Shown here: in pieces, positions 20,018-37,310 of the stretch
Position numbering within the stretch: position 1 is the stretch's first letter
Layout of the letters: each line of letters opens with the position of its first letter
Assembly: GCF_014647115.1 (NCBI RefSeq)
Contig: NZ_BMOO01000002.1
Location: forward strand, 434,001-498,000
Direction: 5' to 3'
DNA length: 64,000 bases
DNA from: Halarchaeum rubridurum
GTDB taxonomy: Archaea > Halobacteriota > Halobacteria > Halobacteriales > Halobacteriaceae
Notes under the pieces: model-generated
What the model was told of the DNA's origin: nothing
What the model saw: only the letters and a program-made list of their open reading frames with translations
Databases searched by the model: none
Made by a program: the position numbers and the translations under genes

Positions 20018-23000
20018 GTTTCAGCCCCGTTCTGGGTTTCTACCGCGTTGCGACATACCCGCCAACGTAGTCGATAACTGGGAGGGTTTCAATCCCGTTC
20101 TGGGTTTCTACCGCGTTGCGACCTCCACGTCAAGCCACTCTTTCGAGCGCAGCCCGGTTTCAATCCCGTTCTGGGTTTCTACCGCGTTGCGACTGCGAAG
20201 CCCGGCCGCCACATCGAGATCGCCATCAAGTTTCAATCCCGTTCTGGGTTTCTACCGCGTTGCGACTAGGCGAACGCGCCGGAAATTGAGTTATCCAGCC
20301 TCCGTTTCAATCCCGTTCTGGGTTTCTACCGCGTTGCGACCACTCGGCAGGTCGGTTTTGACGTTGCTGTCCGGGAGTTTCAATCCCGTTCTGGGTTTCT
20401 ACCGCGTTGCGACAGCGCCGTGAGCGGACGGCCGACGCACTCGACGAGTTTCAATCCCGTTCTGGGTTTCTACCGCGTTGCGACGCGGAAGAGATCGTCG
20501 AGCACCTCCGTGTCCGGGAGTTTCAATCCCGTTCTGGGTTTCTACCGCGTTGCGACCGTCCGAGAACGCGCGACGGCTCTCAGCCATCGTGTTTCAATCC
20601 CGTTCTGGGTTTCTACCGCGTTGCGACACGCACATGACCGTCCGTTTCGCGCCGTCATAGTGCGGTGTTTCAATCCCGTTCTGGGTTTCTACCGCGTTGC
20701 GACTCGCGTCTACATCGGTGGCGCGGACGCGCAGCCAGGTTTCAATCCCGTTCTGGGTTTCTACCGCGTTGCGACCGTTCAGCCGATTCTCGTCTGCATC
20801 GCGCTCCAGTAGGTTTCAATCCCGTTCTGGGTTTCTACCGCGTTGCGACGTTGGAGTCCGTGACGGTGCCGGTCCCGAAGGACGAGTTTCAATCCCGTTC
20901 TGGGTTTCTACCGCGTTGCGACGTCCCGTACTGCGGCTCGTTCGCCGTCGGTGAGGAGGTTTCAATCCCGTTCTGGGTTTCTACCGCGTTGCGACCCCGC
21001 AGTATGGACAGCGAACCGAGTGATTACCAGTGTTTCAATCCCGTTCTGGGTTTCTACCGCGTTGCGACCCGTCGGAGACTGCGCGAGCGCGACCGTCTGG
21101 CAGTTGTTTCAATCCCGTTCTGGGTTTCTACCGCGTTGCGACTCGACGAGACCGACCGCTACACCGGCGTCCTCCATAAGTTTCAATCCCGTTCTGGGTT
21201 TCTACCGCGTTGCGACCAGTCGTACGCGTTCTTGGCGTCGAGGTTGTCGATCTGTTTCAATCCCGTTCTGGGTTTCTACCGCGTTGCGACCGTCGACGCA
21301 CGACGGTCGCATGGCCGTCACGGTCGGCAGTTTCAATCCCGTTCTGGGTTTCTACCGCGTTGCGACGTGTCGACGCCACCAGGAGGGATAGGTGGAGGGC
21401 GTTTCAATCCCGTTCTGGGTTTCTACCGCGTTGCGACCCACGCACCGTCACCGACCCGACTTCCTCGTACTCGTGTTTCAATCCCGTTCTGGGTTTCTAC
21501 CGCGTTGCGACTCCGCCAAGGTTTATTGGCTGACCGACGCGGGCCGATGTTTCAATCCCGTTCTGGGTTTCTACCGCGTTGCGACTCCGCCAAGGTTTAT
21601 TGGCTGACCGACGCGGGCCGATGTTTCAATCCCGTTCTGGGTTTCTACCGCGTTGCGACCAGCTGCTCGCCCACGTCGACGAGGCCGCCCACACGTTTCA
21701 ATCCCGTTCTGGGTTTCTACCGCGTTGCGACATAATCTCGTTGCGGCGCTTCTGGGCTGCCTGTTCTTCGTTTCAATCCCGTTCTGGGTTTCTACCGCGT
21801 TGCGACGCGACCGCGACCTACACCGCATAGAACCCTACTCCTGTTTCAATCCCGTTCTGGGTTTCTACCGCGTTGCGACACAGCGCGGTTGTGTCCGCGA
21901 TGTGCTTGCTGAGGAGTGTGACCGTTTCAATCCCGTTCTGGGTTTCTACCGCGTTGCGACTCGTTGCGCGTGACGGCCCAGACGGTTGCGTGCTGTTTCA
22001 ATCCCGTTCTGGGTTTCTACCGCGTTGCGACAGCCCGCGTCCTGACCGATCTGACGCTCGCCGATGTGTTTCAATCCCGTTCTGGGTTTCTACCGCGTTG
22101 CGACGATGCGGAATTGAGAGGGTGAGATTCGTGTCCGAGTTTCAATCCCGTTCTGGGTTTCTACCGCGTTGCGACCACCGCCGACCGTCCGAAAGAGAGC
22201 GTCGAGGAGCGTTTCAATCCCGTTCTGGGTTTCTACCGCGTTGCGACCGATCAGTATGGAGACGCATCCGCGTGGGTTCCAGACGTTTCAATCCCGTTCT
22301 GGGTTTCTACCGCGTTGCGACGCGGCGACTCCCCCGCCCATCCATCGCGTACTGCACGTGTTTCAATCCCGTTCTGGGTTTCTACCGCGTTGCGACCGGA
22401 CGCCGGAAGTGAAACAGCAACCTACTACTGTTTCAATCCCGTTCTGGGTTTCTACCGCGTTGCGACATCCCGAACCACAGTCTGGCCGGTTGTTGTGATA
22501 AGTTTCAATCCCGTTCTGGGTTTCTACCGCGTTGCGACCGGAAACAAGGAGGTGAGCGATGATGAGTAGTCCGCGTTTCAATCCCGTTCTGGGTTTCTAC
22601 CGCGTTGCGACCCGACGAAGAGTTGGGGTCGTCCGCGACGCCGGGGTGTTTCAATCCCGTTCTGGGTTTCTACCGCGTTGCGACCCTCGTCGAGAGTCTG
22701 CTAACCGGGCGAGTTCTGAAGTTTCAATCCCGTTCTGGGTTTCTACCGCGTTGCGACAAACCGAACGGGGTGACGCGCGGTGAGCACGCCCGACCTGTTT
22801 CAATCCCGTTCTGGGTTTCTACCGCGTTGCGACCGAGCGCGTTCTACGAGGGGCGGTCGGCATGACGTGTTTCAATCCCGTTCTGGGTTTCTACCGCGTT
22901 GCGACGGCCCAGCTCGCAAAGGAGAATCTCGCTCAGACGAGTTTCAATCCCGTTCTGGGTTTCTACCGCGTTGCGACCGAGGCGCTCGCGCGCCCGCGCT

Positions 23001-24333: not shown

Positions 24334-25182
24334 ATGCGTCGGGTCGACTTAACGCTTGAGCCGGAGGGGTCATTCCCGGTGCCGACCGCGAACGGCTACC
24401 AGATCTACGGGGCCGTGCTCTCGGCGCTCGACGACGTCGACGGGGACGTCAGCACGCGCGTCCACGACTCCCCGATCGGGAGCCTGACGAACAGCGGCCT
24501 CCTCGGGACCTTCGACGGGAGCCACCGCGACCACCACAAACGCGTGATCCGCGAGGAGACGTACGACCTCAAAATCGGCGTCGCCGATCCCCGTGATCAG
24601 GAGGTCTTTCAGGCGCTCGCCGACGCGTTCGTCTTCAGCGGCGACATGCTCGAACTCGCTGACGGCGATTTCCGCGTCCGCGACTTCGCAAGCACGAACG
24701 CGACGCACGAGGAGATTCTCACCGAAGCCTCGAAGGTCGTCGAGCGGAATCACGACACCTTCGAGATTGAGGTACGCTTCAAGACGCCGACGTGCATCAA
24801 GGAGAGCGGGGAGATCACGACGATGTTCCCCCACCGTGGCAGCGTCTTCCGCTCGCTCCTGCGCAAATGGTCGTCGACGATTCCGGACGAGCGGGCCGAC
24901 GAGCTCGACCTCGCGATGACCCGCGAGGACTTCGAGGCGAACCTCATCGAGAAACCCGACGCACACACCTACGAGACGCACAGCGTCCTCGTCAACCGCG
25001 GCGAGGACGGCGGGCCCATCCTCCGACAGGGGTTCACCGCCGACTGTACCTACCGGTTCAAGGGCGCGAGCGACGCCATCCGGACCGCGGTCACGGCGCT
25101 CGCGCTCTTCAGCGAGTACGCTGGCGTCGGTGGGTTCGTCTCCAGAGGGTGTGGGACAGTCTCCGTGGAGGTGAAAGAATGA
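24334..25182 (+). CDS. cas6: Cas6 CRISPR RNA endonuclease
   Basis: 282-aa RAMP endonuclease that cuts pre-crRNA at the 3' base of the repeat hairpin, leaving an 8-nt ATTGAAAC handle. Two ferredoxin-like halves are visible; the C-terminal one carries the family glycine-rich loop GVGGFVSRGCGTVSVEV at residues 264-280. The N-terminal half has PTANGYQIYGAVLSALDD, as in other archaeal Cas6. The ATG has GAGGTG 4 nt upstream. It is the first gene rightwards from the csa3-cas6 divergent promoter and is separated from cas10d by a 400-nt gap containing a degenerate mini-CRISPR and a small ORF. Its own RNA substrate would include the crRNA-like element just downstream. Confidence 0.93.
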   Translation: MRRVDLTLEPEGSFPVPTANGYQIYGAVLSALDDVDGDVSTRVHDSPIGSLTNSGLLGTFDGSHRDHHKRVIREETYDLKIGVADPRDQEVFQALADAFVFSGDMLELADGDFRVRDFASTNATHEEILTEASKVVERNHDTFEIEVRFKTPTCIKESGEITTMFPHRGSVFRSLLRKWSSTIPDERADELDLAMTREDFEANLIEKPDAHTYETHSVLVNRGEDGGPILRQGFTADCTYRFKGASDAIRTAVTALALFSEYAGVGGFVSRGCGTVSVEVKE

Positions 25183-25240
25183 ACCGTAGTAGTTGCGACC
25201 AGTATAGGATTTCAATTCCTAGTGGATTTCTACCCGGACG
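25170..25240 (-). ncRNA. crRNA-like RNA (CreA/CreR-type degenerate mini-CRISPR)
   Basis: Minus-strand element in the cas6-cas10d gap. A degenerate repeat (psi-R, plus-strand 25209-25234 and a weaker 5' part to about 25243) keeps GGTAGAAA, a hairpin TCC-ACTA-GGA and the handle ATTGAAAT; the true repeat has GGTAGAAA, CCC-AGAAC-GGG and ATTGAAAC. The outer pair C:G has become U:A, so pairing is preserved. Next comes a spacer-like stretch CCTATACTG (25200-25208) and then GTCGCAAC (25192-25199), identical to the first 8 nt of the true repeat. The spacer-like stretch recurs as an 11-bp match at 25290-25300. A TATA-like GAGTATCT on the minus strand near 25264 sits about 26 nt before psi-R, and a T-rich stretch (TTCATTCTTTC) at 25170-25180 could end the RNA. 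CreA of type I-B CreTA modules has this layout. Confidence 0.75.
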
Positions 25241-25285
25241 CACCCGGAACTGGGATACCCAGATACTCGAATCTTCCGGTTCTAA

Positions 25286-25300
25286 TTCAACCAGTATAGG
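25286..25300 (+). promoter_or_regulatory. TATA-like promoter element targeted by the crRNA-like RNA
   Basis: ACCAGTATAGG at 25290-25300 repeats exactly the spacer-like region at 25198-25208. The TATAGG core followed by GCC resembles the CTATAGGTGCC promoter element of the array 2 leader. Transcription would start near 25320, about 25 nt before the ATG at 25348, and run into cas10d. Base pairing of the RNA (5'-CCTATACTGG) with the plus strand here would put Cascade over the promoter. The trinucleotide 5' of the match on the protospacer strand is GCG. Confidence 0.6.
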
Positions 25301-25347
25301 CGCCGCAACCACTAACTGCTTCGGCATGGTAGTGGCAAGTGCGCCAG

Positions 25348-25593
25348 ATGAACCACGCGAACTCCCCGGTTGCCCAACCAGTCGAAATCGTTACCAACAA
25401 CCGTCTCAGTGGCGACGCACGCTCCGGGCTCTTGATAGACGACCTTGGTCGGCAGTATCGGTACCTGTCATCCCACACGGTCGAAGAATCTGGGCGTGGT
25501 CTCGTCGATACAGCCGATGTACCCGGTGTAGGCCATCTCCTCTGGATTCGACAGTACTACCCACTCCACGAGGGCGAATCTGATGCCGACTGA
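25348..25593 (+). CDS. Small acidic protein of unknown function between cas6 and cas10d
   Basis: 81-aa protein, MNHANSPVAQPVEIVTNNRL at the N-terminus, then LIDDLGRQYRYLSSHTVEES and VGHLLWIRQYYPLHEGESDAD at the C-terminus. It has no lysine and an acidic end, as haloarchaeal proteins do, and its stop overlaps the cas10d start by 11 bp, pointing to translational coupling. An in-frame GTG at 25339 is a less likely start. I recognise no domain. It would be the first gene under the promoter matched by the crRNA-like RNA, so it could be a toxin-like or regulatory partner, or merely a leader peptide for cas10d expression; both are inference. Confidence 0.65.
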   Translation: MNHANSPVAQPVEIVTNNRLSGDARSGLLIDDLGRQYRYLSSHTVEESGRGLVDTADVPGVGHLLWIRQYYPLHEGESDAD

Positions 25594-28090
25594 CGATTCC
25601 ATCTGGGGCGACCGGGACGGGGACGTCCACCCCGCTCTCGCTGAGTACCTTGCGGACGTCGACCCGCGACTCCTCGACGTCGGCTGGGCGTTCGAGTCGG
25701 CGAAGAGCGTCGAGTACGACCTCACCGACCAGTCGATGCTCAATCACGTCCGGAACGGCGTGTTCGCGATCACGTGGCTGAACGAGGTCGCACCGTCGTT
25801 CGGCGCGTACGAACTGGACGACGACGACCTCCGTCGGGTGATCGCGCTGTTCGCCGTCCACGACCTTCACAAGCTACGCGGCGAGCAGTCGATGGACGAG
25901 GAGTACGACATCCCACGAGCGGAGGTCGAAGAGCTCGTCGACGCGCTCGGGGTCGACGGGTTCGGACCAGACCTCAGGATCGAAGACTTCCACGCGTCCG
26001 CGGTCGACCACGCGAACACGTGGAACTCGAACCCGGAGCACTCCACTCGAACGTACGGTCGGCTTCGTCCGTACGTCCGCCTCGCGGACGCGTTCGCGTC
26101 CTGTCCCACGCCGGAGTCGGCCGTCGTCGAACGGAACCAGCGCGCGCTCGACGTCGCGTACCCCGATGCCGACCTCGAACTCCGCCAGCACACGCTCGAC
26201 GACGTCAAGGGGATGCTCACGAATCTGCTCAACGGAGCCGTCAGTGAGGTCCTCGGTGATCGCGTGGGCTACGAGCCGCTCCTCGTCTATCAGGACGGCT
26301 GTGTCTACTTGACAGACGGCGACGCTCCCGACGTGGCCGTCGACGACGAACTGATCGAGGATGTCTACGACCGACTCCAGTCCACGATAGGCGACTCCCA
26401 TCCCGCGTACGACGACCACGACGCGCTCGCGGAGAACCTCTCGACGCAGTCACACGGCTTCTACACGATCAACGATCAGGACTTCTTCTACGCGGGCGCA
26501 CGGAACCTCCTCTACGCGGTCGCGGTGAAGGCCACACAGGACGCCGACCCCGACGCCGATCCGACCGACAGCATGGCGGAGACGATGGAGACGCTGAACG
26601 ACCGGCTCCCCATCGAGATCGATACGACCACGCGCGTCGCCCCGGGATACGCCCGTCTGGTGTATACGTTCGAACGGTCGTTCGTCGCTCCGATCGTGGA
26701 CGCCGGCTCGACGGACGAGGACGCGCTCACGCTCACGTGCCGGCTCTTCGAGGTCGACGAGGGCGTCCTCGACGGCCTCCGGGAGTTACGGGAGGACGAC
26801 GACGTCGACCTCACGGCCGGCGGCAAGTGGGACTACGCGTACGCGATCGGCCAACACGTCGCGGACCGCGCCCGCCGCGACGGCTGGACCGGGAGCGTGT
26901 CCCAGCACGTCGCGAAACTCCTCGTCACGAACCTCGACGCGCTCGACGGGGAGTGGGAGGACGCCGTCATGGCCGCACACACGGGCCGCTTCGAGACCGA
27001 ACTCCGCGCGTACGTCGCCGACGTCCTCCGCGTCGATGGGCGGGCGTCCCCGCCGACCGAGGAGCTGAACGACCTGACCGACCCCTTCGAGGAACATCAC
27101 GCGACCCGACGCGGGAAGACGTGCACGTTCTGCAATCGGGGCACGACGAGCACGCGGAAAAGCGACATGAAGGCGCCAAAGTCGCTCACGACGTTCCAAG
27201 CGGGGTACTCGAACCGGATACCCGCCGACGCCGGCCAGCCGGAGAAGCTCCTCGTCTGCACGCCGTGTCAGATCGAGTTCTCCCTCCGAGAGACCGGATC
27301 GAGTCGTCGCGACGCCGGCCGAATCTTCGTCCACCTCGTCCCCGACTACTTCTACACGCCGACGATGTGGGAGTTCTACTCCGAGCAGGTGTTCGCGCGG
27401 TTCACCGGCGAGGCGATGACGCGAGTCGGACACCTCGCCTCCGCGATGTTCGACCTCGCGACCAGCGACGCGGACCGGTCCAGCCCGGCTCCGTGCGCCA
27501 AGCTGATCTCGACCGTTCTGCGGGAGTCGACGCGCGCCGACGACGAGGGTGGTCGTTCGATGGTCGAAAGCATCCAACAGGACTTCGAGTCGGACGCCGG
27601 GTTCGGGACGCAGACCCTCTCGTTCTACAAACCGAAGGACAACGACACGGAGTTCCAGTTCTTCGGCGTCTTCGTCGGCCTCTCGGTCGCGTCCGCGATG
27701 GGGCTCCGGGCGTACGTCTCGGAATCCCCGCTCCCCGACCTCAGGGGTCGTGACTTCCAGGAGATGGCGAAACTCGACGCGGGGTTCTCGACCGTGAGCG
27801 GGTTCTACGGTCGTGACGTCCCGCTCTCGAAGTTCCGGGAGCGGCTCGGCGCCGCAGCGGCGCTGATCGGACTCGGGTACGAGCTCGCGCTCGACGACGC
27901 CCGGTTCGCGAAGTACCTCCGGGTCGTCCGGAACAAGCCGCTCCCCGGGTCGTACCTGCTGAAGCGAGCGGCACAGGACTCCGATGACGGCGGGGCCGCA
28001 CGGTACCTGCTCGAGGAAGCGGACTACCTCGACTATCACGGGAACCTCACGAACGACGCGGAGACCACCACGGAGACCATCAACAGATGA
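25583..28090 (+). CDS. csc3: Cas10d/Csc3, type I-D large subunit with HD nuclease domain
   Basis: 835-aa large subunit of the type I-D Cascade. The N-terminal HD nuclease domain shows H55 (SMLNHVRNGV), H93-D94 (FAVHDLHK), a histidine near residue 147 (ASAVDHANTW) and an aspartate in RLADAF near 174, the usual I-D location of the DNA-cutting HD site. A zinc ribbon of two CxxC pairs (CTFC near 512, CTPC near 559) interrupts the palm-like region. No GGDD cyclase motif is visible. It is somewhat short at the C-terminus for the family, and the next gene (ATGA overlap at 28087) encodes a separate helical protein that may supply the small-subunit part. Confidence 0.88.
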   Translation: MPTDDSIWGDRDGDVHPALAEYLADVDPRLLDVGWAFESAKSVEYDLTDQSMLNHVRNGVFAITWLNEVAPSFGAYELDDDDLRRVIALFAVHDLHKLRGEQSMDEEYDIPRAEVEELVDALGVDGFGPDLRIEDFHASAVDHANTWNSNPEHSTRTYGRLRPYVRLADAFASCPTPESAVVERNQRALDVAYPDADLELRQHTLDDVKGMLTNLLNGAVSEVLGDRVGYEPLLVYQDGCVYLTDGDAPDVAVDDELIEDVYDRLQSTIGDSHPAYDDHDALAENLSTQSHGFYTINDQDFFYAGARNLLYAVAVKATQDADPDADPTDSMAETMETLNDRLPIEIDTTTRVAPGYARLVYTFERSFVAPIVDAGSTDEDALTLTCRLFEVDEGVLDGLRELREDDDVDLTAGGKWDYAYAIGQHVADRARRDGWTGSVSQHVAKLLVTNLDALDGEWEDAVMAAHTGRFETELRAYVADVLRVDGRASPPTEELNDLTDPFEEHHATRRGKTCTFCNRGTTSTRKSDMKAPKSLTTFQAGYSNRIPADAGQPEKLLVCTPCQIEFSLRETGSSRRDAGRIFVHLVPDYFYTPTMWEFYSEQVFARFTGEAMTRVGHLASAMFDLATSDADRSSPAPCAKLISTVLRESTRADDEGGRSMVESIQQDFESDAGFGTQTLSFYKPKDNDTEFQFFGVFVGLSVASAMGLRAYVSESPLPDLRGRDFQEMAKLDAGFSTVSGFYGRDVPLSKFRERLGAAAALIGLGYELALDDARFAKYLRVVRNKPLPGSYLLKRAAQDSDDGGAARYLLEEADYLDYHGNLTNDAETTTETINR

Positions 28091-28527
28091 CGAACGCGAT
28101 CAAAGACGACATCACCGAACTCGCGAAGCTCGCGTACGATGCAGTGCGACCGCGAAACCAGTACGATTACCAGCCGTACTCCGTCGAGCGGGTGTTCCGA
28201 GAGTCGGTGAAAGCTGTCAAGAACACGCACGGTATTCGGATCGATCCGGACGAAGCCACGATGCGCATCGCGGGTCGCCTGGAGAAACTACCCTCGCGGA
28301 CCCGGAAGGCCCGTCGAGTGAAAGCCGAAGAGAGCGAGAGCGGCGATCCGTTCCATGAGCGGGTTGAGCGCTATGCGGAGACGTTTGTACAGCGACTGCT
28401 CGTCGAGCGCTACGAGTGTAAGCCGTCGCTGCTGAAACGGCAGGCGAACGACCTCGCCGACGGCTTCTACGCGGCGACGATTCGGCTGCAGCGCGAGACG
28501 ACCGACGACACCACGGAGACCAACTGA
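28087..28527 (+). CDS. Candidate stand-alone small subunit (Cas11d-like) of type I-D Cascade
   Basis: 146-aa protein, almost entirely helical by pattern (DDITELAKLAYDAVRPRNQY, DEATMRIAGRLEKLPSRTRK, RVERYAETFVQRLLVERYEC), ending in an acidic threonine-rich tail. Its start overlaps the cas10d stop (ATGA) and csc2 starts 2 bp after its stop, so it belongs to the effector operon. In other studied type I-D systems Cas11d arises by internal translation from the 3' end of cas10d; here a separate gene sits exactly at that place. A Cas11d role is inferred from size, helicity and position; I see no diagnostic sequence motif. Confidence 0.6.
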   Translation: MTNAIKDDITELAKLAYDAVRPRNQYDYQPYSVERVFRESVKAVKNTHGIRIDPDEATMRIAGRLEKLPSRTRKARRVKAEESESGDPFHERVERYAETFVQRLLVERYECKPSLLKRQANDLADGFYAATIRLQRETTDDTTETN

Positions 28528-34418: not shown

Positions 34419-37310
34419 GTCGCAACGCGGTAGAAACCCAGAACGGGATTGAAACAACGCTTCGAAGGACTCGGGGAGGGGGTGGCCGCCATGTCGCAAC
34501 GCGGTAGAAACCCAGAACGGGATTGAAACAGGTCTATCTTCGCGTAGTCTCCCTGCGTCGTCTTCGTCGCAACGCGGTAGAAACCCAGAACGGGATTGAA
34601 ACGACTACGAGCGCGGCGTCCCAATTGAGGACGTCGTGTCGCAACGCGGTAGAAACCCAGAACGGGATTGAAACAACTCGACGGTCGCGAGGTCGTCCGT
34701 CGAGACGCGTCGCAACGCGGTAGAAACCCAGAACGGGATTGAAACACGTCGTCGTCAACGAGACCGTCACGCTCGACAACGGTCGCAACGCGGTAGAAAC
34801 CCAGAACGGGATTGAAACGCCGCGACGATCGCGTGCTGCTCGCGGCGGCGCTCGGTCGCAACGCGGTAGAAACCCAGAACGGGATTGAAACTCTGACGCT
34901 CTATCACCGGTATTGTTAAGTTGATAACCTGCGACGGTGGTCGCAACGCGGTAGAAACCCAGAACGGGATTGAAACGCCGCAACAGCGATGTCGACGATG
35001 TCGGTGAGGTTTGTCGCAACGCGGTAGAAACCCAGAACGGGATTGAAACGCACCGAGTGGCGGCTCATCTGCCTCGATTGCGAGTCGCAACGCGGTAGAA
35101 ACCCAGAACGGGATTGAAACAGCGCGTCGACCGTATCGTCGTGGAAGCCCTCCGGGTCGCAACGCGGTAGAAACCCAGAACGGGATTGAAACAGGGACTG
35201 CATCTTGTCGGGTGGTTCGCGGAGCCCCTGAGCTTCGTCGCAACGCGGTAGAAACCCAGAACGGGATTGAAACCGACGGTGGTACTGTACGGGTTTGACG
35301 CGCCTATCGGTCGCAACGCGGTAGAAACCCAGAACGGGATTGAAACAAGAGCATGCGCTTGATGGAGTCGTCAAGTGGCGCGTCGCAACGCGGTAGAAAC
35401 CCAGAACGGGATTGAAACAGCATCCTCCAACTCTACTTCGACGATAATCGCGAGTCGCAACGCGGTAGAAACCCAGAACGGGATTGAAACAGCATGGATT
35501 AAGTATGCGCGCGAGGAGGTGAATCCGTCGCAACGCGGTAGAAACCCAGAACGGGATTGAAACAGTTTACGGTCTCCGAGATGCGGAACGCGAACGGCGA
35601 GTCGCAACGCGGTAGAAACCCAGAACGGGATTGAAACGATTCAGCCCCGTCGAGTGGGACATCGCCGAGACCCTCACGTCGCAACGCGGTAGAAACCCAG
35701 AACGGGATTGAAACGAACCAATCCGCGACGAGGCTGGTGTGCATGGCGAGTCGCAACGCGGTAGAAACCCAGAACGGGATTGAAACTCGGTTGCGTGGTA
35801 CATCTCTCGTGCCATACTACAGTCGCAACGCGGTAGAAACCCAGAACGGGATTGAAACAGGACAAGGAGGACCGGCAGGATGCCCCAGAGGGCGTCGCAA
35901 CGCGGTAGAAACCCAGAACGGGATTGAAACCTGACGTACATCGACAAGGCCGATAGCCTCGGCGGGTGTCGCAACGCGGTAGAAACCCAGAACGGGATTG
36001 AAACACGCCGAGACTTCGGTCACGCGATCCGTCGCAAGTGGTCGCAACGCGGTAGAAACCCAGAACGGGATTGAAACACGACGACGAGAGTGAGACCGAA
36101 CCGGATGGTGGCGTCGCAACGCGGTAGAAACCCAGAACGGGATTGAAACCTTGATGGATTCGAGGGGTCAATCAACATCCTGATGTCGCAACGCGGTAGA
36201 AACCCAGAACGGGATTGAAACACCGAAGCCGATGCCCGTACTCAATCCCGCTCGGGCCGTCGCAACGCGGTAGAAACCCAGAACGGGATTGAAACACGTA
36301 GATGCGGCGTGGCAACTCGGTGCGCGTGGTGGTGTCGCAACGCGGTAGAAACCCAGAACGGGATTGAAACAAAGAGCACGCGGATGCCGACCCGGAACTG
36401 GCGGTTGGTCGCAACGCGGTAGAAACCCAGAACGGGATTGAAACTCACGGTCACGGTGTTCGCCGCGTAGTCGACCGAGTGTCGCAACGCGGTAGAAACC
36501 CAGAACGGGATTGAAACAAGACAAGCGAATGCGAGACGAGTTCTTCGCTATAGTCGCAACGCGGTAGAAACCCAGAACGGGATTGAAACGATGCCGTGAC
36601 ACGGCTTTCCGTCGTCGACGTGTGCGGTGTCGCAACGCGGTAGAAACCCAGAACGGGATTGAAACGCGACGGAGAAGGAAGCAGAGCGCGAAGAAGAACG
36701 TCGCAACGCGGTAGAAACCCAGAACGGGATTGAAACTCCGTCACGTCAATAGTGTCCACAGGCACGCTGGGTCGCAACGCGGTAGAAACCCAGAACGGGA
36801 TTGAAACGTCGAACTCGGGGAACGGCGTCGCGTGCGCAATTGGTCGCAACGCGGTAGAAACCCAGAACGGGATTGAAACATCAGCAGGACGGCGGGGAGG
36901 AGCCACCACGGGATCGTCGCAACGCGGTAGAAACCCAGAACGGGATTGAAACCCGGCGAATAGGTCGAGGCAGACCCGAGTCATGTCGCAACGCGGTAGA
37001 AACCCAGAACGGGATTGAAACCGAATGAGTCGGCGCTCCATCGAGATCGGGACGTCCGGTCGCAACGCGGTAGAAACCCAGAACGGGATTGAAACTCGTC
37101 GCTCCATCCCCGCTCGGGCTGGCGGCCGAGGGTCGCAACGCGGTAGAAACCCAGAACGGGATTGAAACGCGTACCACGAGTCCTCGAAGTCTCGTGGCGG
37201 GTCGCAACGCGGTAGAAACCCAGAACGGGATTGAAACCGTCAGCAGTCAACCAGACGCGACGACCATCGTCAGGTCGCAACGCGGTAGAAACCCAGAACG
37301 GGAGTAAAAC
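34419..37310 (+). CRISPR. CRISPR array 2: 40 repeats of 37 bp, 39 spacers, transcribed rightwards
   Basis: Same 37-bp repeat as array 1, here with GTCGCAACGCGG first on the plus strand, from 34419-34455 to 37274-37310. The last repeat is degenerate in the handle (GGAGTAAAAC instead of GGATTGAAAC), marking the leader-distal end. Spacers are mostly 32-40 nt; two are long (34892-34939, 48 nt; 35193-35236, 44 nt). The leader lies on the cas side, so the two arrays diverge from the cas operon. Confidence 0.99.

Follow-up and report, generated by a model that had tools for sequence, protein, structure and literature searches.

What is the role of a single degenerate repeat, followed by a spacer-like segment of only 9 nt, in the middle of a complete type I-D CRISPR-Cas (clustered regularly interspaced short palindromic repeats, CRISPR-associated) operon? 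We addressed this question for the 400-bp gap between cas6 and cas10d of Halarchaeum rubridurum, within a stretch of 64,000 nt (contig NZ_BMOO01000002.1, positions 434,001 to 498,000 of the forward strand; hereafter, the window). A first-pass annotation had described the element as a mini-CRISPR resembling CreA and CreR RNAs, the spacer-like part of which matches a nearby promoter. The most likely answer is that a CreR- or CreA-like RNA would steer the type I-D Cascade to repress an internal promoter of the operon. All motifs quoted in that annotation were found at their positions on the minus strand of the gap. The element and its target, which carries a sequence resembling a protospacer-adjacent motif (PAM), comprise the following features.

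25209–25240, minus strand: degenerate repeat psiR1, kept in 11 loci (motif positions), consisting of GGTAGAAA (25227–25234), a 3-bp hairpin TCC-ACTA-GGA (TCC/GGA arms within 25217–25226) and the 8-nt handle ATTGAAAT (25209–25216)
25200–25208, minus strand: spacer-like psiS, CCTATACTG, 9 nt (motif position)
25192–25199, minus strand: psiR2 remnant GTCGCAAC, the same 8 nt with which the array repeat begins
25198–25208, minus strand: guide seed, positions 1–11 (the 9 nt of psiS and the first 2 nt of psiR2), from comparison across loci
25290–25300, minus strand: protospacer-like target, the 11-nt seed match CCTATACTGGT (11/11), unique with its 5' GGCG in the 2.8-Mb genome
25301–25304, minus strand: PAM-like GGCG 5' of the target; GGCG, GGCC, or GGCA at six loci, and GGCG and GGCT 5' of two viral protospacer matches

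With its 9-nt spacer and degenerate repeats, the element is not a unit of an immune array, the array spacers here being ~33–44 nt long; it has the form of a CreR, that is to say, a degenerate mini-CRISPR with a handle like that of a CRISPR RNA (crRNA).

The 11-bp recurrence reported by the first-pass annotation is an exact copy of guide positions 1–11 counted from the handle, and the guide–target match ends at position 12. The two occurrences of ACCAGTATAGG, at 25198–25208 and 25290–25300, are the sole exact pair in the 64 kb, for which the chance expectation of matches with at most one mismatch is 0.04. A pattern search for GGC-N followed by the seed returned one site in the organism's own 2.8-Mb genome and no other site within one mismatch. 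CreA acts through seed positions 1–5 and 7–11 (PMC8501985), and the span of the window match equals the seed length known for CreA. Chance is ruled out mainly by the homologous loci, not by this single 11-mer pair.

Homologous loci were gathered by searching haloarchaeal genomes for relatives of cas10d and cas6; the genus neighbors of the window genome among those compared are H. nitratireducens (locus L002) and H. acidiphilum. The element, with its crRNA-like handle on the minus strand, is present in 11 haloarchaeal loci of two type I-D branches, always 34, 52, 60, or 73 bp from the cas6 stop codon, and the spacing from guide to target, on the same strand, is usually 91–97 bp. Many other I-D loci, in which cas6 abuts the large-subunit gene (e.g., L004, L013, L054, L056, and L058), have no element. 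Guides, flanks, and targets are as follows.

Window: guide CCTATACTGGT, flank GGCG, target CCTATACTGGT
L005: guide CTTGTATGGGT, flank GGCG, target CTTGTATGGGT
L003: guide CTTGTCTGGGT, flank GGCC, target CTTGTATGGGT
L031: guide TATGTCGAGAT, flank GGCC, target TATGTAGAGAT
L052: guide AGTGGCAGTGC, flank GGTG, target AGTGGGAGTGC
L055: guide AGTGGCAGTGC, flank GGTG, target AGTGGAAGTGC
L062: guide CTGAGCGATAT, flank GGTG, target CTGAGGGATAT
L057: guide AAGGTTCTGGT, flank GGCA, target AAGGTACCGGT, on the opposite strand
L002: guide TCTGTCCGGGT, flank GGCG, target TCTGTATAGGT

At positions 1–5 and 7–11, seven of the 11 cognate guides fully match (10/10) a site in their own gap; in a control that applied the seeds of 1,371 genuine array spacers to these gaps, 10/10 was reached in 14 of 15,081 trials. 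In an eighth locus, L057, the single mismatch between guide and target is a G-U wobble, and this target is inverted, yet its GGC flank is kept. Seed sequences differ from lineage to lineage, and a gap is not matched by guides from outside its own lineage; guide and target therefore change together. L003 and L005 are related by descent, as are L052, L055, and L053, so that the full pairs amount to five independent ones. Five of the seven full matches have a mismatch at position 6, which is also the sole difference between the L052 and L055 targets; this position is flipped out in type I crRNA, so a mismatch there is expected. The pairs consist of a CreA-type seed (1–5 and 7–11) matching a PAM-adjacent site of putative promoter status and, as in CreR, of limited seed complementarity beside a PAM-like flank upstream of the own cas genes. 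Hairpin and seed match, which the first-pass annotation had singled out for comparison in homologous loci, are both kept there, with lineage-specific seeds, and its proposal of a guard or autoregulatory RNA guiding the type I-D Cascade is supported by the seven 10/10 guides, the constant PAM-like flank, and the free position 6.

The second haloarchaeal branch (L053:10314–12782; also L052, L055, and L059–L063) encodes Cas3', Csc2- and Csc1-like proteins, and a large subunit of ~820 aa. Its Cas7 and Cas5 match the Csc2 and Csc1 profiles, and its large subunit matches no NCBIfam model.

In the classical I-D branch the target flank reads GGCN; in the second branch it is GGTG. For comparison, the I-D PAM has been published as GTN or GTH for cyanobacteria (PMC10212523) and as GTN for Sulfolobus (PMC10577407). 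As an independent test of the PAM, all spacers were compared, in a relaxed ungapped scan, with viral contigs totaling 2 Mb and including many from haloviruses. The best match (30/37) was that of the array 1 spacer starting with ACGAGTACGAGGAAGTCGGG (reverse strand) to the DNA polymerase gene of the halovirus HVTV-1 and a relative, with a seed of 11/11 and a 5' GGCG. A second match (29/36), of an H. nitratireducens (L002) spacer to the same virus, has a 5' GGCT. The GGCN before both viral protospacers agrees, as expected, with a putative PAM role of the target flank. Reversed spacers had no viral match at 0.78, and further viral matches in more distant branches (L017, L059, and L060), which show no GGCN, may be due to chance. 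No protospacer was found when arrays and loci were compared with phage records, and the spacers had one weak match among plasmids. Spacer matches from 292 genomes were discarded as a PAM source, being mostly composition noise. From the regulatory targets alone, the haloarchaeal I-D interference PAM is predicted to be GGCN, and GTG in the second branch; the two protospacer matches agree.

The evidence from the psiR1 hairpin is of a supporting kind. The first-pass annotation had taken a C:G to U:A change in one stem pair as a sign of selection for an RNA; the change is real, but it is weak as an argument for selection, counting as one event because the four closest loci share it by ancestry. Independent changes came from the wider comparison of loci: the 3-bp stem is kept at 30 of 30 pairs across ten elements, as TCC/GGA, CTC/GAG, GCC/GGC, and wobbles. 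Permutation of the stem pairs (p = 0.005 over rows and 0.033 over unique arm pairs) gives modest support for the hairpin, and hairpin energy alone was uninformative (z of −1.3, 0.7, and 0.1). Haloarchaeal I-B repeats have no conserved hairpin reported, and Cas6 there is surmised not to read structure (PMC9458426); psiR1 pairing is therefore treated as supporting evidence only.

The type I-D operon of the window is complete, with cas6, the 400-bp gap, cas10d/csc3, a separate open reading frame (ORF) for the Csc3 C-terminus, csc2, csc1, cas3', cas4, cas1, and cas2, and is flanked by two arrays of one repeat sequence.

24334–25182, plus strand: cas6, 282 aa (TIGR01877, E 4.5e-8, under the curated cut-off; orthologs adjoin I-D genes)
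25348–25593, plus strand: small ORF, 81 aa, a predicted five-stranded OB-like barrel, with an 11-nt overlap with the cas10d start
25583–28090, plus strand: cas10d/csc3 large subunit (TIGR03174, E 2.6e-140)
28087–28527, plus strand: Cas11d-like separate ORF, matching the Csc3 C-terminal end only (TIGR03174 817–946)
20017–23410, minus strand: CRISPR array 1, repeat GTCGCAACGCGGTAGAAACCCAGAACGGGATTGAAAC, the same as in array 2
34419–37310, plus strand: CRISPR array 2, repeat GTCGCAACGCGGTAGAAACCCAGAACGGGATTGAAAC, the same as in array 1

The Cas11d-like ORF overlaps cas10d by 4 nt and is a naturally split Csc3 C-terminal subunit; the Cas10d of L031 is longer (989 aa). In array 1, two neighboring repeat-spacer units (21474–21621) are identical across 74 nt, that is, a spacer is duplicated. 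Each array is closed by a decayed terminal repeat (20019–20042 and 37286–37309) with 2 changes in the 24-nt core.

Both the small ORF and cas10d lie downstream of the target. The small ORF extends past the start of the large-subunit gene in the loci checked, with overlaps of 11 nt in the window, L002, and L003, 20–23 nt in L031 and L057, and 4 nt in L062, which places both genes on one transcript. The predicted barrel of the 81-aa protein (mean predicted local distance difference test score 82) returned OB-folds only in a fold search, with no specific structural match, and the protein has no Pfam, NCBIfam, or known toxin match. A homolog is present in L057 (BLASTP E 2e-9) and a probable one in L031; none convincing was found elsewhere in 391 genomes. 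The OB-like ORFs of L062 and L065 appeared similar by eye and were rejected as relatives after profile comparison. Rare codons are few in the window ORF and absent from its first 14 codons, in contrast to CreT with its tandem rare codons, and its product shows no sign of being a repressed protein toxin of the CrePA kind, which typically has KilA-N. In L003 (9781–10011) and L005 (1911–2141), the ORF starts with ATG ATA GCT AGG ACY AAR YTA AGR, in which 4 of the first 8 codons are rare, and lacks codon-position bias (15:11:15, vs 33:23:71 for cas6); it is possibly CreT-like or a translation-throttling leader. Its rare codons are kept in two genera. The L002 gap has a 41-aa ORF with AGA-UAU-AGA.

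We propose that the one-unit degenerate CRISPR would be read from the minus strand and that Cas6 would cut after the psiR1 hairpin, yielding a crRNA-like RNA with the 5' handle AUUGAAAU and the guide CCUAUACUGGU. The I-D Cascade carrying this RNA would recognize GGCG and pair only at seed positions 1–5 and 7–11 at 25290–25300, which would be too short for Cas3 attack and sufficient for Cascade to occupy the promoter region. Plentiful Cascade would then reduce transcription of the small ORF/cas10d effector operon in a negative feedback. The RNA probably functions in CreR-like autorepression, directing Cascade onto an internal promoter of the small ORF and cas10d.

Several points weigh against this reading. 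The seed match of L002 is only 8/10 (9/10 counting a G-U wobble), and its viral match differs at seed positions 1, 6, and 11; the L065 guide has no match in its own gap; and L053 retains an intact guide element but, compared with L052/L055, has lost the target region and the small ORF by deletion, leaving an orphan guide. The PAM is backed by two protospacer families only, both imperfect. The TATA-like element was read by eye, and no tool identified a haloarchaeal promoter; we infer the promoter position, like transcription, Cas6 processing, Cascade binding, and repression, from the DNA. The rare-codon mini-ORFs of L003/L005 resemble CreT toxins and could mean that the RNA is a guard. In such a CreTA- or CrePA-like addiction module, the Cascade–guide complex would repress a toxic gap product, namely, the small protein in the window or a rare-codon RNA in L003/L005, and loss or inhibition of Cascade would harm the cell. 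We consider a guard possible, though doubtful. Close relatives differ in what the target–cas10d interval contains (the window, L057, and L031 have the 81-aa OB-like protein, L002 a 41-aa ORF, and L003/L005 a rare-codon ORF), the target and ORF were lost together in L053, and CreT genes are predicted to have rare codons opening a longer ORF (PMC8501985); however, an ORF overlapping the cas10d start would be read on any cas read-through from cas6, and the one in the window is poor in rare codons and matches no known toxin. A shade less probable is a specific I-D form, in which the RNA would hold down the OB-fold protein or the rare-codon leader ORF, coupled to cas10d translation, with cargo swapped and guide and target co-evolving; the promoter would then sense Cascade loss or inhibition, giving more effector and releasing a growth-stopping or anti-inhibitor product. 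Gene order leans toward autoregulation rather than a guard: we prefer autorepression because the ORF and the large-subunit gene share a transcript and because the corresponding gap of Haloarcula hispanica holds a strong promoter that drives the cas genes downstream (PMC9458426). The two functions could coexist.

Two readings dispense with a functional RNA guide. The degenerate repeat, the very short spacer, and the conserved L053 element without target would fit a functionless relic of a CRISPR unit, its seed match arising by chance or local duplication. This reading is strongly disfavored, as guide–target pairs stay matched while lineages diverge, position 6 is free, the flank is constant, and cross-lineage guides are unmatched. 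Alternatively, in the window alone, an 11-bp motif present twice at a distance of 92 bp resembles paired DNA operators of a protein regulator. That is very improbable, since the motif differs by lineage and is free to vary at position 6, a crRNA handle is invariably attached to one of its copies, and L057 has the second copy in inverted orientation.

The effector of type I-D is a hybrid of types I and III. These loci supply natural seed-only targets suited to the study of I-D binding without cleavage; the co-varying small ORF is open to direct study of its role. Compared with CreA of the haloarchaeal I-B CreTA modules (Haloarcula hispanica and Halobacterium hubeiense), the element is alike in its cas-operon location (the cas6–cas8 gap in H. 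hispanica), its degenerate repeats with the 8-nt handle kept, its seed of 1–5 and 7–11, and the PAM beside the target (PMC8501985, PMC9458426). The differences are the TTC PAM of I-B and the nature of CreT, a rare-codon RNA, in place of which the window carries an ORF for an OB-like protein that overlaps cas10d. With CrePA it shares repression of a protein-coding gene by a crRNA-like RNA (PMC12737573), which is predicted here; the known CreP typically has a KilA-N domain, whereas the 81 aa of the window protein form a predicted OB-like barrel that matches no known toxin.

CreR autorepression has been described for types I-B, I-E, and V-A (PMC13131331). In the literature searched, we found no type I-D case of a CRISPR-derived self-regulating RNA, although the original CreR paper, which was outside that search, may list predicted ones. 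The present loci would extend RNA-guided self-regulation to type I-D, including two diverged branches. The element is similar to CreR (PMC13131331, PMC12737573) in being a mini-CRISPR with a limited match to its own cas promoter, putative here, and in the negative feedback that the effector would exert. It differs from CreR in its type I-D setting and GGCN or GGTG flank, in the fusion of a 9-nt spacer to an 8-nt repeat remnant, and in the small ORF between the target and cas10d.
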